A DNA stretch of 64,000 nucleotides, taken from contig OX595985.1 of the NCBI GenBank assembly GCA_951394045.1, forward strand, positions 930,001 through 994,000, written 5' to 3'. Below, one piece after another: positions 54,725 through 61,345 of this stretch. Under the pieces are notes generated by a model. The model had not been told where the DNA came from. It was given only the letters and a program-made list of their open reading frames with translations, and made no database searches. Both the position numbers and the translations under genes were made by a program. Position 1 is the first letter of the stretch. Each line of letters starts with the position of its first letter. Origin of the DNA: Nitzschia sp. DOCU1. Taxonomy: Eukaryota > Bacillariophyta > Bacillariophyceae > Bacillariales > Bacillariaceae.

Positions 54725-55420
54725 CTAATGTCTATAGTATGAATTTTGCAGGACAAATGTCCAGCACACATATGCCCGTGACTCGATAAGTTTGAACATG
54801 CAATAGACTGACTCGAGCACTTTCGGCAACAGTCAATTGAGTCACAAACGCTTTCACCTCGCGCCATGTCGATTTTCGGATGTTACTACTACTACGTTGA
54901 CGATGACGAGACAACGCCAATGATATTATTAGGTATTATAGATACTCGTTACTGGTGCTACTACTCATTACAACTAGTTCTGTTCGCCGACCTCAGATTT
55001 TGCAATTAGCTGGCTCAATCAATGCAAAAAAGACGTCGCCTGTAAAGTTGCCGTTTTCCAAGGCAGGACCCGATAATCAATGCTGGTTTGAATAGGGTAG
55101 CTATTGTGTCATGCTTCTGACAACGACATTTGGGTTGAAACGACGTTGATCCGAAAACGGTCGCCAATCGGGATTGATTGGAGGCCACCGCCTCCATCAT
55201 CGAGGGCCAAATAGCGTCGTGCCCCCAGTCATTGAAAAAGTGAGTCATTGGAGTCCAAAATCGAATGGAGGACATTTGTCCTGTGAAGTTCTAATGATCG
55301 TTCGAATGATCAAATTAGCGCTATTTTACATAGGGGGAAATTTGATCAGACGAACATTTCCGGGACATTTTGTCCTGCATCTCTCGTGTGGATCACGGAT
55401 TGTTGTCCCGTAAAGGTAAG
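54725..55420 (+). repeat. 696-bp tandem repeat, copy 1
   Basis: The first of two head-to-tail copies that I find identical wherever I compared them. The unit starts with CTAATG, which also starts copy 2 and follows it at 56117. Inside, inverted subterminal motifs occur: TGCAGGACAAATGTCC at 54747-54762 and GGACATTTTGTCCTGCA at 55363-55379, plus a third GGACATTTGTCC at 55270-55281. There is no credible protein: the short open frames lack good context and any domain. The structure suggests a non-autonomous DNA element (inference). Confidence 0.9.
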
Positions 55421-56116
55421 CTAATGTCTATAGTATGAATTTTGCAGGACAAATGTCCAGCACACATATGCCCGTGACTCGATAAGTTTGAACATGCAAT
55501 AGACTGACTCGAGCACTTTCGGCAACAGTCAATTGAGTCACAAACGCTTTCACCTCGCGCCATGTCGATTTTCGGATGTTACTACTACTACGTTGACGAT
55601 GACGAGACAACGCCAATGATATTATTAGGTATTATAGATACTCGTTACTGGTGCTACTACTCATTACAACTAGTTCTGTTCGCCGACCTCAGATTTTGCA
55701 ATTAGCTGGCTCAATCAATGCAAAAAAGACGTCGCCTGTAAAGTTGCCGTTTTCCAAGGCAGGACCCGATAATCAATGCTGGTTTGAATAGGGTAGCTAT
55801 TGTGTCATGCTTCTGACAACGACATTTGGGTTGAAACGACGTTGATCCGAAAACGGTCGCCAATCGGGATTGATTGGAGGCCACCGCCTCCATCATCGAG
55901 GGCCAAATAGCGTCGTGCCCCCAGTCATTGAAAAAGTGAGTCATTGGAGTCCAAAATCGAATGGAGGACATTTGTCCTGTGAAGTTCTAATGATCGTTCG
56001 AATGATCAAATTAGCGCTATTTTACATAGGGGGAAATTTGATCAGACGAACATTTCCGGGACATTTTGTCCTGCATCTCTCGTGTGGATCACGGATTGTT
56101 GTCCCGTAAAGGTAAG
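55421..56116 (+). repeat. 696-bp tandem repeat, copy 2
   Basis: The second copy, offset by exactly 696 bp, ends just before a third CTAATG. The apparent perfect identity means a very recent duplication or an assembly artefact. It ends 139 bp before the first possible start codon of the AlkB-SRA gene. Confidence 0.9.
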
Positions 56117-56254: not shown

Positions 56255-59086
56255 ATGCTATTAACAATTTTCAGAGAGGTTGCAACCGAGTCTGATACGA
56301 ATACATACACTCACCCTAACCCTAACAGCTTCAGGGGTACTGGTGATGCGATTGGATCCCCCGCCTACCATAACAACATGAAAAGACTGTGGCATGCAGA
56401 GCCTGAATTTTACAAGAGTTGCTTTCCAGAAAGAGCTCTGGTTCGTATCTGTTTTCCACTGCAATGCCAGTCTTTTGGTCGAACCTCTGACACCACGCAT
56501 TTTTCTTTCCTGATCATCTGCAGCAGCTAGTTCCGGGACATGGTATTCCAATTCCGCCTCCTCTTCCTAACGTAAGTTGCTGGTGGTCAGCCAGTTTGTT
56601 AACCTTTGAGCCATCGTGCGCATTGACAACATCATGGAATGTCGTCGTTTCTTGTTGATATTCATAGATAATGAATCACCATCCAATCGCACCTGCGGTA
56701 CCCCCTGCGCCTACTGGTTTCTTACCCGTGCTTGACCCTGGGGCTTTCTTGGTCCCACTGCCACCTCGTGGTGGTCCACAGCCGACAGGAAATTCATCGT
56801 GGTGGACATCGCCCCCTACTGCGGCACCGCCGCCAGCTCTAATGCCGACGGTTCAGCCTCAACCCGATGCACCCCCTTCTGTGCCAAAGCCAGTGAGTGC
56901 TCGGGAATCATGGGAGCAAGCATATTTACGAGTTACGCAACAAGAATTTACACTCGCGTCCACGCCGATCGCACCGGTGGGTCAACTGGCTGCCCAAAAC
57001 ATCTCGGATCGTCATATCATACGTCGTGACACGATGGGCTCTCTCGGTAATTCCTCCATTGATACCTACCACATATGTGCGCCCTTCATCACGAATGACA
57101 GTCGCTCTCGTCCTCAACCGGCTAGAAAGCCAGCAAAGAAGCTATCCCATGCCAAAGCTACGCCCAAGGCTGAAGCAAAAGTCAAGAGTGTTCCTCAAAA
57201 GGACCGACCGGCAAAGAAAACCCGTGTGGTGAAGAAATCTTTGAAGGACTGTCCTCTAGGGGCTGGAAAACCTACAAGGGGATTCCATGGGAAACTCACG
57301 CCCAATGCTAGAGTATCGCCCAACCAAGAAATGGCGGTGGAGCGTATCGTCGCTACCATCCAGACGTATGACGCCAACACGAAAACATGGAGCAGTCGAG
57401 ACACATTGTTTTCGGCTCCCAAGAGCTCGCAAGGCGCTGGAAAATGTTTGGAGAAGAAGTTGCATCGAGGCGGAACCATCAAGATTTATCCGTCCATGCT
57501 ATCCGAGACGGAACTGACGGATGTTTCGAAAGATTTGCTGAGTGACGAGGGCGCAGGCTTCTTTCGGCAGTACAAGATCCAAGGAGACGATGAGCCCCGC
57601 TGCCATTTTCATATGCACAAACATGCCACGCCCAACTTTGAAGATCCACAGCCTGGTTATGCGTATATGGGTAAACAGATCAAGATGAAGAGCATCCCAT
57701 TAGCCAATTTTGGTGGAGTTGCGAAAGTGTCACAGAGAATGGCGGAAACTTGTGATGTTGCTGAATGGACTACTGGTGTCCATGCCGTGTTGTACCGAGA
57801 TTTCAAAGATAAGATGGGTTTCCATGCTGGTAAGTTTTTTACAGGGGCGTTCCGAAATCCATGTGATAGAAGACTGACACCATGCCTATTTCTGAATCCG
57901 TTTTGTCTGACGGCAACAAAGACAACGACCAAGGTGAACAGCTTATTCTGGCTGCAGTAATCAAAATGCCTACTAGGCAGATTCGTGTCGTTCGGGTTCG
58001 GCCACGCTCAGGAGTAGAACTCCAACACGGAGATGAAGATATCGAGCTGTTTCTTGAAGCAGGTAGGTCTAGTGTGCGTGCGATTGATATGCATTATTTT
58101 ACAACTGATGTCTTCTAACGATTCATGCGCTCAATTTTTCAGGGGACGGCTATTCCATGGATGGTAAGAGTGCCGTTTTAGTCCATGGTACTGCGTGCGA
58201 TTGTAGCTCACTTGTGTTTTGACTTCCAGGTGAAATGCAAAAGCACTATTTTCATGGTGTGGCTGATGCGCGAAGTCCAAAACGTCGGGTGCTTACCACG
58301 GCCGAGCCACAAACGCCCAAACCAGCAAGGTCTAGTGATGCCGCTGCAATTACCCCCTCCCCGATTGCAATGGATAGTTCTTTTACCGGTGCTGCCGTTG
58401 GAGGATCAGAAACTCAACGAGCCATGCGCGGATCCGAAGTCAATGCCGAAGCCGAGGACGATAGGCGGCTGGTCCTTGTCTTCCGCAAGGGGGATATGGT
58501 TGTATTTGAAAACGACACTGGAGTTGCATGTGATACTCTGGCACCGAGGAAAGGTCGTTACAATCAGTTTGGCCAAATTCCAGGCTTGGACGAGGGCAAG
58601 TGTTCCATCCGATATGAAATGTTGACCCTGAATGGCCATCTCATGGCACAACGTGGCCTATCCGGCAACAAGGATTTTGGCTGCGACGCCATGATTGTGT
58701 CGGGCAAAAGACCGGACAATTTGGGGCATGACAAACTGTTTAACCTCGAGTACTTCGTTGAGCAAAGCAAGGGGGCACTTGGAGTTGTGAAGAGCTATGA
58801 ACTTGGCAAGCCAATTCGTGTTTTTCGACCAGAGGACTCCAACTATCACGAGCTCCAAGCCATTGGCCCCCACCCAAAATTTGGAATTACGACCTGCTAT
58901 CGCTATGATGGGCTGTATTTTGTAACGGACAAGGAGGAACCCAAAGAAAAGAATGGGCCTTGGAAGTTTAAGCTTGAAAGAGCGTCATCCGGGAACAAGA
59001 TTTCCAATGACAGTTATATTGAACACTGCATTGCGATGGGAACGATGAGGGATGAAGCAAAAAAGCTTATATCAGCCTGCACCTGA
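56255..59086 (+). CDS. AlkB-like 2OG-Fe(II) dioxygenase fused to an SRA (YDG) domain
   Basis: Proposed exons: 56255-56440, 56524-56571, 56668-57829, 57922-58062, 58143-58163 (21-nt microexon), 58230-59086; every join keeps phase and gives 804 residues. The first two exons are less certain; starts at 56378 or 56671 are possible. Residues about 80-170 are Pro-rich, 170-240 Lys-rich. The AlkB-like core has the splice-completed iron motif GFHADNDQGEQ (His464, Asp466), FLEAGDGYSMDGEMQ, and the distal His528 in KHYFHGV, then SPKRRVLTT with one of the two usual arginines. Residues about 630-800, in the same exon as His528, form an SRA domain: FGQIPGLDEGKCSIRYEM, GLSGNKDFGCDAMIVSG, GALGVVKSYELGKPIRVFR, CYRYDGLYFV. 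AlkB enzymes oxidise N-alkyl bases; SRA domains flip out modified cytosine. The combined role (finding and oxidising modified bases in DNA) is inference. Confidence 0.85.
56313..56326 (+). repeat. Interstitial telomere-like motif
   Basis: ACCCTAACCCTAAC, about 2.3 units of the complement of TTAGGG, inside or just before the first exon of the AlkB-SRA gene. It is short and may be chance. Confidence 0.5.
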
Positions 59087-59486: not shown

Positions 59487-61345
59487 TCAAGAAACTCCAA
59501 GATGCATACCGGTACTCTCATGTAGAACACTTTTCAGCCTGCGTTGGTAGACTCGCGGAACGTGCCGGGATAGATCGAACATTTGAGGGCGGATCCTCAG
59601 TTCGTCAAAAACACGAGGCGGAATTTCTCGAATTTCTGGGGGGCTCTTCTTGTCGGCCGGGTAGCTTAGAAACAACAGCCGCCCAGGTGGATACAACTTC
59701 TCGCCAGTCATCCGCTGCCTTATTTCTTGCATTCGTTCATGGCACCACCGGATGTCGTCGCTGTCCATTTCACTGATGGGGCCATCCGTAATTGTTAAAA
59801 TGGTGGTCCGGAGGTCATCGTCCTCGCACAAATGCGCCAAAGCACAGGAAATATCAGCCACATGCCCCAAAGACAGAGACGAAAACGGATCACCCTCGAG
59901 CATCACAGACACTATTCGATTCTTGTTCATGTCGTTCATAGGCGCCACACACGCGGGGCCATACGCGTACACCTTAACGCCGCGGAACGTATCTGACCAC
60001 ATCTGCCCCAAAACTGCAGCGACACTGCCACCTAACGAATGCCCCACCAGGACGAGGGAATAACCCGGATTCCCTGCCAATGCCTCGCTGATGATATCTT
60101 CAGCCATATCCTTGACACCTCGCGCTGCCGCCAACATACCATAGTGAGCATCATGACGCCGCGAAGATACAAAATATTCTTCGGGTGTGCAACACAGATC
60201 AGTCAAAAGATCATGGGCAGACCAAGTACCTCGTACCGACAGTACAATTGTTTTCTTCTTTTTATCTCTTGCGATGTAAAATGCCTTAAGGAGAAAGAAG
60301 TTAGTCAAACGAACGAGCGAAACATAGAAACTCTTTTCGACAACAGTGGCAGTAGACTTACCGGACGGTTTGCTCGGGCTTCCCATTCGACTTTGATGAT
60401 GTCCTCTGGGTCAATCTTGGTCATTTTGACTACGGCATGCAAGTCACCGCGGTGAAACTTACCAGCGGTTGCCAGGTCTAGTTTCCAACCATACGCTGCC
60501 GACGCAAAGGGTGCATAGTGGCAGAGCTCCTCCAGCAAGTCATCATCATTCAACTTCGGGAAATCCTTCATGGGCCCATGCACTTGTTGTTTCTCGATCT
60601 GACCCAAATGATATTCACTAGCTGCTTGCAGTCGCGACAATGCATATATAGCGGCAATCAACTCCTGCGTAGGATACTTTTTGAATATGTCGACCACACC
60701 ATGGTCGTGCGCCGAATCCAAAATTTCTTGGATCGTTTTCACTGCCGCAATTGTATCACTCTTTACTAGTCGGGCAGCCAGCTATTGTGCAAGAACAGAG
60801 GGCAAACAGGAAGTGAGATGACAAAGTCCAGTATGGTAGGCTATGAAACGATTCACGATGAAACGCACCCTAAAGAGGCTGTCACGACGTGATATTAGAG
60901 CCGCTAGAGTTGCCTGGAGGGAAACGATCCACGCCAGAAAGAGCGCAAATGATTGTGCTAGTAGATCGAGGGAAGTCGACGAGGGGAGGTTCCGCTGTCG
61001 AACGATGGATGCGTCTGCGCCACCTCTCAACAAGTACGAATGGCCACAACGTACCCCTTCTACCACAGACACACTGCGTCTTCTTCCGTGGTGCCACAGT
61101 CTTCGCATCAGACTCTTGCCGTTGCTCTGGGTAGGATCATTGAAGTCGTAAAATCCGCTGAAAACATCGTCAAGGAATGAAATGTCTGCTTTCGATCCAT
61201 TCTGGCGAGTGTTTCGTTCGCGGTCAAACGCGTAGGTACGGTCGACGACGCAAAGAAAAAGTAGTACAGTCATGATCATCATGTACTGTCTCCGACACTG
61301 CCAAGCAGATGGACGAAGCAGGGGCCTCGGCATGCCGCCCCTCAT
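59487..61345 (-). CDS. Class 3 lipase, sn1-diacylglycerol lipase-like, membrane-anchored
   Basis: Exons 61345-60869, 60781-60362, 60284-59487 (introns of 87 and 77 nt, all phase 0) give 564 residues. The first exon adds a signal-anchor (MMIMTVLLFLCVVDRTYAF) and a second hydrophobic stretch (LLAQSFALFLAWIVSLQATL); it joins to LAARLVKSDTIAAVKTIQEI. The lipase domain has TIVLSVRGTWSAHDLLTDL, the nucleophile Ser382 in VLVGHSLGGSVAAVL, a likely Asp in the MLEGDPFSSLSL block and a late SRHVPRVYQRRL like the DH(x)P..Y..L end of DAG lipases. These enzymes release a fatty acid from diacylglycerol. The 60-residue gap before the nucleophile has HDAHYGMLAAARGVKDMAED, as in DAGL. The substrate is inferred from the family. 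Confidence 0.88.

Follow-up and report, generated by a model that had tools for sequence, protein, structure and literature searches.

An AlkB-like dioxygenase joined to an SRA domain in the diatom Nitzschia sp. DOCU1: a possible DNA demethylase with a built-in chromatin address

Results

A single gene encodes both domains

The window analysed here is a 64,000-nucleotide stretch of the genome of the diatom Nitzschia sp. DOCU1 (C1:930001–994000; the genome comprises 52 Mb in 63 contigs). On its + strand we identified a gene whose four exons (56671–57829, 57922–58062, 58143–58163, and 58230–59086) join into a single open frame of 725 residues, encoding an AlkB-like dioxygenase domain followed by an SRA domain. 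The start codon at 56671 was chosen, and the first methionine right ahead of the conserved core lies at 57331–57333. The first exon contributes an alien proline-rich N-terminus, a lysine-rich stretch, and the first half of the AlkB domain up to the HA of its HAD motif; the second supplies the D of this motif and NDQGE, and the third is a micro-exon for the GDGYSMDG region. The last exon contains the end of the AlkB domain (second histidine, insertion, and arginine strand), the SRA domain, and the stop codon. All three introns have GT/AG borders in each of the five copies of this gene in the genome (window copy, L016, L017, L018, and L019).

Only two Pfam families matched the window protein at E ≤ 1, namely 2OG-FeII_Oxy_2 (E 2.6e-13, 51.1 bits, cut-off 31.2) and SAD_SRA (E 2.3e-12, 47.3 bits, cut-off 30.7), with no Tet_JBP, PHD, or RING among the matches. 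The original prediction, made from the DNA letters alone, had proposed that AlkB and SRA domains share one protein, with the distal HGV histidine and the SRA domain in the same exon; both proposals hold, and the profile hidden Markov model search it suggested as a check matched the two domains. A split of the region into two genes is disfavoured, since the two halves co-evolve (see below) and a transcriptome-derived homologue, P0047, contains both.

Active-site composition of the AlkB and SRA domains

The spliced AlkB domain extends from RGGTIKIYP to the second arginine of RRLVLVFR (57466–58486, + strand, by Pfam and alignment). The iron ligands HxD...H and the C-terminal Arg...Arg pair were all found: the first histidine lies at 57823–57825, the second, of the HGV motif, at 58253–58255, and the arginines at 58466–58468 and 58484–58486, at the two ends of one strand (58466–58486). 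One of these arginines had been thought lost. Alignment with homologues places both in RRLVLVFR, beyond an insertion or linker specific to the copies of this genome (58262–58459): from the HGV/HSVP motif to the arginine strand there are 65–69 residues in the five copies and 8–50 in 54 other rows. Because that arginine is present, the argument for a new AlkB specificity drawn from its absence falls away. In an alignment of 48 hand-chosen proteins out of the 74 of the profile search described below, with gapped rows dropped for each count, the catalytic residues are nearly invariant (H170 45/45, D172 45/45, H233 46/46, R249 46/46, R255 45/46, and D174 43/46). A direct search of the PDB with the AlkB sequence of the window gave no match at E ≤ 1. 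In a two-domain structure prediction for a homologue, P0001, the AlkB part adopts a fold of the ALKBH2/3 type, with ~20% identity to human ALKBH2 and ALKBH3; its SRA fold is likewise predicted to be intact.

The SRA domain (58532–58987, + strand, Pfam) carries a YRYDGLY motif from 58898. We compared its pocket by profile alignment, rather than through a solved structure, with that of TagI, for which a published study gives Tyr55, Tyr67, and Asp58 as the predicted pocket and Gln35 as the thumb residue (PMC6212794). The thumb glutamine (58649–58651), aligned with Gln35, is retained in 46 of 48 rows, and the second pocket tyrosine (58751–58753), at the position of Tyr67, in 44 of 47. The position of Tyr55 is occupied by arginine in the window copy (58709–58711) and in 36 of 47 rows, and by tryptophan in 5 of 47, so that the two aromatic walls of a TagI-type pocket do not appear to be retained together. 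The NKR-type finger is absent, and the finger is ~15 residues shorter than that of TagI. The same source notes that some SRA domains do without the NKR motif, and that PvuRts1I, in which part of the finger region is almost missing, accepts glucosylated 5-hydroxymethylcytosine (5hmC) (PMC6212794). Judged by these residues, the SRA domain seems capable of base flipping, yet its reading would be unlike that of UHRF1 in detail. The suggestion of a new specificity thus remains reasonable for the SRA half.

The fusion in other diatoms

A single-sequence search returned 10 proteins, all of them with both domains in precomputed annotation. A profile search, in which 7995 candidates were scored, returned 74 proteins: 55 with both domains, seven with AlkB only, nine with SRA and no AlkB (chromo-like domains being present in one), and three with neither; both searches favour proteins resembling the fused query and are not an unbiased census. 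Nine matches bear names that reveal their organism: Nitzschia (2), Amphora (2), Cylindrotheca (2), a Bacillariaceae metagenome-assembled genome, Epithemia, and Psemu1, which we take to be Pseudo-nitzschia multiseries. Four of these names were placed in Bacillariophycidae, within the orders Bacillariales and Surirellales. The same fusion is thus present in other diatoms. The architecture was already visible in databases, as precomputed Pfam pairs and in the source name of P0051, which gives both domains.

The identities of the AlkB half and the SRA half are correlated across 53 of 59 rows, six short rows being left out (r 0.82), and across 48 homologues with the copies of this genome removed (r 0.80); neither value was reached in any of 2000 permutations. 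The two halves therefore co-evolve at the level of sequence. P0070, a distant homologue, has PHD (E 3.2e-9) and PWWP (E 1.2e-5) domains behind a weak SRA match (17.9 bits, below the cut-off; 31% identity to P0001 across this part). In P0074, a further protein without AlkB, an SRA domain distantly related to this type precedes three Tudor-knot/chromo-like domains. We also considered a viral origin and rejected it: a scan of viral contigs gave 138 pattern sites and no relative, and among the 50 matches listed from a viral fold search all were AlkB-type or unnamed, none annotated as SRA.

Five gene copies and their exchanged 5′ ends

The genome contains five SRA matches, each with AlkB sequence ahead of it, and a DNA search found the identical five copies together with short partial repeats. 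Four copies lie on contig C1 (window copy, L016, L017, and L019) and one on C4 (L018). They form one clade with support of 100/100 in the tree, which indicates local expansion of an older gene.

In L016, L017, and L019 a PHD cassette is followed by lysine-rich tandem repeats and then by AlkB-SRA. PHD_NSD is above the cut-off in all three; in L016 the cassette matches PHD_NSD (E 1.7e-9) and PHDvar_NSD (E 3.2e-7). This cassette is of the kind found in NSD/ASH1L-type PHD-SET methyltransferases, but the AlkB-SRA genes lack SET. All four proteins that it matched outside the genome carry SET, the best being P0075 from Cylindrotheca fusiformis (52% identity). The same genome holds two PHD-SET genes (L039 and L041) and a PHD-BTB gene (L040), which together with the three AlkB-SRA copies make up the six PHD_NSD matches listed, all on C1. 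Based on these sequence comparisons, the NSD-type PHD cassette, found ahead of SET, BTB, and AlkB-SRA partners, is a module shuffled among chromatin genes. L039 (C1:3.49 Mb) and L041 (C1:5.40 Mb), flanks included, are 95–97% identical across ~4.5 kb and 2.8 kb, a large duplication.

No PHD cassette is present in the window copy. The place of the PHD-bearing 5′ part of its sisters is taken by a fragment (56324–57015, + strand) that matches, at 96% identity, an internal part of an unrelated gene (C1:1526313–1527004); assignment of this donor as a DUF6824 gene was rejected, as Pfam matched nothing in it. Similarity to the sister copies begins at 57094, with a lysine-rich stretch (57094–57330, + strand) that forms tandem repeats in the sisters. 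Two CCCTAA telomere-like units (56314–56325) border the transplanted fragment. In L017, a tandem duplication of 182 bases, 95.6% identical, lies at the C-terminal end of the SRA exon (L017:3176–3531). Carriage of the gene as mobile-element cargo is unsupported, as introns are retained in the copies and segments of a neighbouring gene are shared; element ends were outside this search.

That neighbouring gene (59487–60742, − strand) has a lipase-like GHSLGG motif. Stretches of it (up to 59970, and 60362–60742) are also found in the flank of L016, so the duplication took along part of this gene. Just upstream of the AlkB-SRA gene lies a tandem duplication (54725–56109) with a spacing of 696 bases; 54725–55024 and 55421–55720 are 100% identical over the reported 300 bases, and by eye the identity extends to ~55413 and 56109.

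Selection on the two domains was estimated from the ratio of nonsynonymous to synonymous divergence (dN/dS) by the Nei-Gojobori method with 200 codon bootstraps. Between the window copy and L018, dN/dS was 0.26 (0.19–0.37) for AlkB, 0.40 (0.27–0.56) for SRA plus the last AlkB strand, and 1.22 (0.71–2.14) for the insertion, with dN of 0.30 in SRA and 0.12 in AlkB. Purifying selection has thus held both domains across the longer divergence, and recent constraint, as estimated among the young copies, is weak.

Discussion

Our tentative preference, to which we give slightly less than an even chance, is that this family represents an ALKBH2/3-type Fe(II)/2-oxoglutarate DNA demethylase with a built-in chromatin address. 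The address would be the C-terminal SRA domain, to which three sister copies would add lysine-rich repeats and the NSD-type PHD cassette. By flipping and holding a modified base, the SRA domain would keep the AlkB catalytic site on neighbouring DNA, from which AlkB would then strip N-methyl groups by oxidation. The likeliest substrate would be 3-methylcytosine (3mC), with 1-methyladenine (1mA); 3mC is a by-product of C5-cytosine methyltransferases, so that repair would focus on the sites at which methylation is deposited. One study reports co-evolution of ALKB2 with DNMT1 and DNMT3, and the formation of 3mC by DNMTs as an off-target product (PMC9246332). The computed basis consists of the fusion, its conservation, the intact catalytic centre, the predicted folds, purifying selection, and C5-methyltransferase domains in this genome (five clear loci and one weak match); we infer that the protein is directed to methylated DNA, that its substrate is 3mC/1mA, and that it acts in the nucleus. 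The conserved catalytic residues, the predicted ALKBH2/3 and SRA folds, and the histone-reader domains that recur alongside agree with the original idea that the enzyme is guided to modified DNA.

Several observations weigh against this interpretation. Binding of 5-methylcytosine (5mC) by the SRA domain is not to be assumed, because the domain has lost the NKR finger and the aromatic residue at the first pocket position, and the counterpart of the TagI carboxylate Asp58 is ambiguous in the alignment (residues 333–338 of P0001). The two-domain model describes P0001 and not the window protein. The CpG observed/expected ratio of 0.99 in the window gives no hint of heavy CpG methylation there, and one of the C5-methyltransferase loci may be a tRNA enzyme. 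A PF13532 search of the genome found 10 other 2OG-FeII_Oxy_2 places, none of them an AlkB-SRA copy, since exons split the domain in these; two (L007 and L010) are ALKBH2/3-like by eye only, and AlkB-SRA is therefore not the sole repair candidate. Among the four young copies, dN/dS over the whole core is 0.62–0.81, with an interval that includes 1 in four of six pairs. The function of the window copy itself is less sure, since this copy arose recently by duplication and has had its 5′ end exchanged.

The altered pocket raises the possibility that the protein erases or reads another mark, for instance N4-methylcytosine, N6-methyladenine, or a bulky cytosine modification, accepted by a finger-less SRA domain with arginine in place of the first tyrosine. 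The prevalence of arginine or tryptophan at this position, the shortened finger, and the precedent of PvuRts1I with glucosylated 5hmC favour such a reading, but these marks are hypothetical here, and a genome search for MT-A70 gave no match, as in control genomes, so that absence is not established; we consider it doubtful. With similar reserve we entertain a variant in which the SRA domain senses something other than 5mC, such as a damaged or enlarged cytosine, within the enzyme that removes it. Such a protein would both locate and remove DNA-methylation damage, or a diatom DNA mark yet to be described, as one self-contained unit, and histone-reader modules would have been grafted onto it repeatedly in this genome.

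It seems slightly less likely that the protein is a TET-like eraser, in which the SRA domain binds 5mC and AlkB oxidises 5mC itself, removing the methylation mark. TET/JBP hydroxylases are 2-oxoglutarate dioxygenases that act on DNA, often with DNA-reader domains; they belong to a different dioxygenase family, of which the window protein shows no match. The genome likewise gave no Tet_JBP match, so this role could be vacant, but the search was also matchless in control genomes and absence is not established. As reported in one study, AlkB, ALKBH2, and ALKBH3 oxidise 5mC in vitro, yet ALKBH2 on duplex DNA gave ≤9% product (PMC8508711). The change in the 5mC pocket also argues against such a role.

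An ordinary alkylation-repair AlkB without an address, with the SRA domain as a generic DNA or protein-interaction module, would explain the partial loss of canonical pocket and finger features and the faster evolution of SRA than of AlkB between the window copy and L018. The near-constant thumb glutamine and second pocket tyrosine, the fold retained throughout, and the co-evolution of the halves make it improbable. Least probable is that the window copy of a functional family is a decaying duplicate heading to pseudogene after losing its PHD-bearing 5′ end and promoter: the 5′ exchange and the weak constraint among young copies are in keeping with decay, but the reading frame and splice sites are undamaged, all catalytic residues are present, and AlkB dN/dS against L019 is 0.41 (0.24–0.72).

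We return to the preferred reading of a targeted ALKBH2/3-type demethylase. Human ALKBH2 and ALKBH3 are DNA 3mC/1mA demethylases and, to our knowledge, lack an SRA domain, to which the diatom protein is fused. The SRA partner is a dioxygenase here, as against RING in UHRF1/UHRF2 or an HNH nuclease in TagI, and the diatom SRA departs from both in its pocket arginine and shorter finger loop; without PHD and RING alongside SRA at E ≤ 1, the window protein does not qualify as a UHRF1 orthologue. The discussion of a paper on diatom methyltransferases names UHRF1, among other things as a candidate accessory type for investigation, and the whole words SRA, AlkB, and TET are absent from its accessible text (PMC9998398). 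The original prediction was aware of no characterisation of this fusion, and we found no paper on it in open-licence literature as judged by titles and the beginnings of abstracts. AlkB and SRA are each of known kinds, and their fusion makes an uncharacterised AlkB that is probably targeted.

The recurrence of the fusion in diatoms may mean that alkylation repair is aimed at their own DNA-methylation marks. If so, an ALKBH2/3-type enzyme joined to an SRA domain, with NSD-type PHD fingers added in this genome, would constitute a physical link between the deposition of methylation and the repair of its damage; alternatively, the family may signal a diatom DNA mark or eraser that still awaits description.
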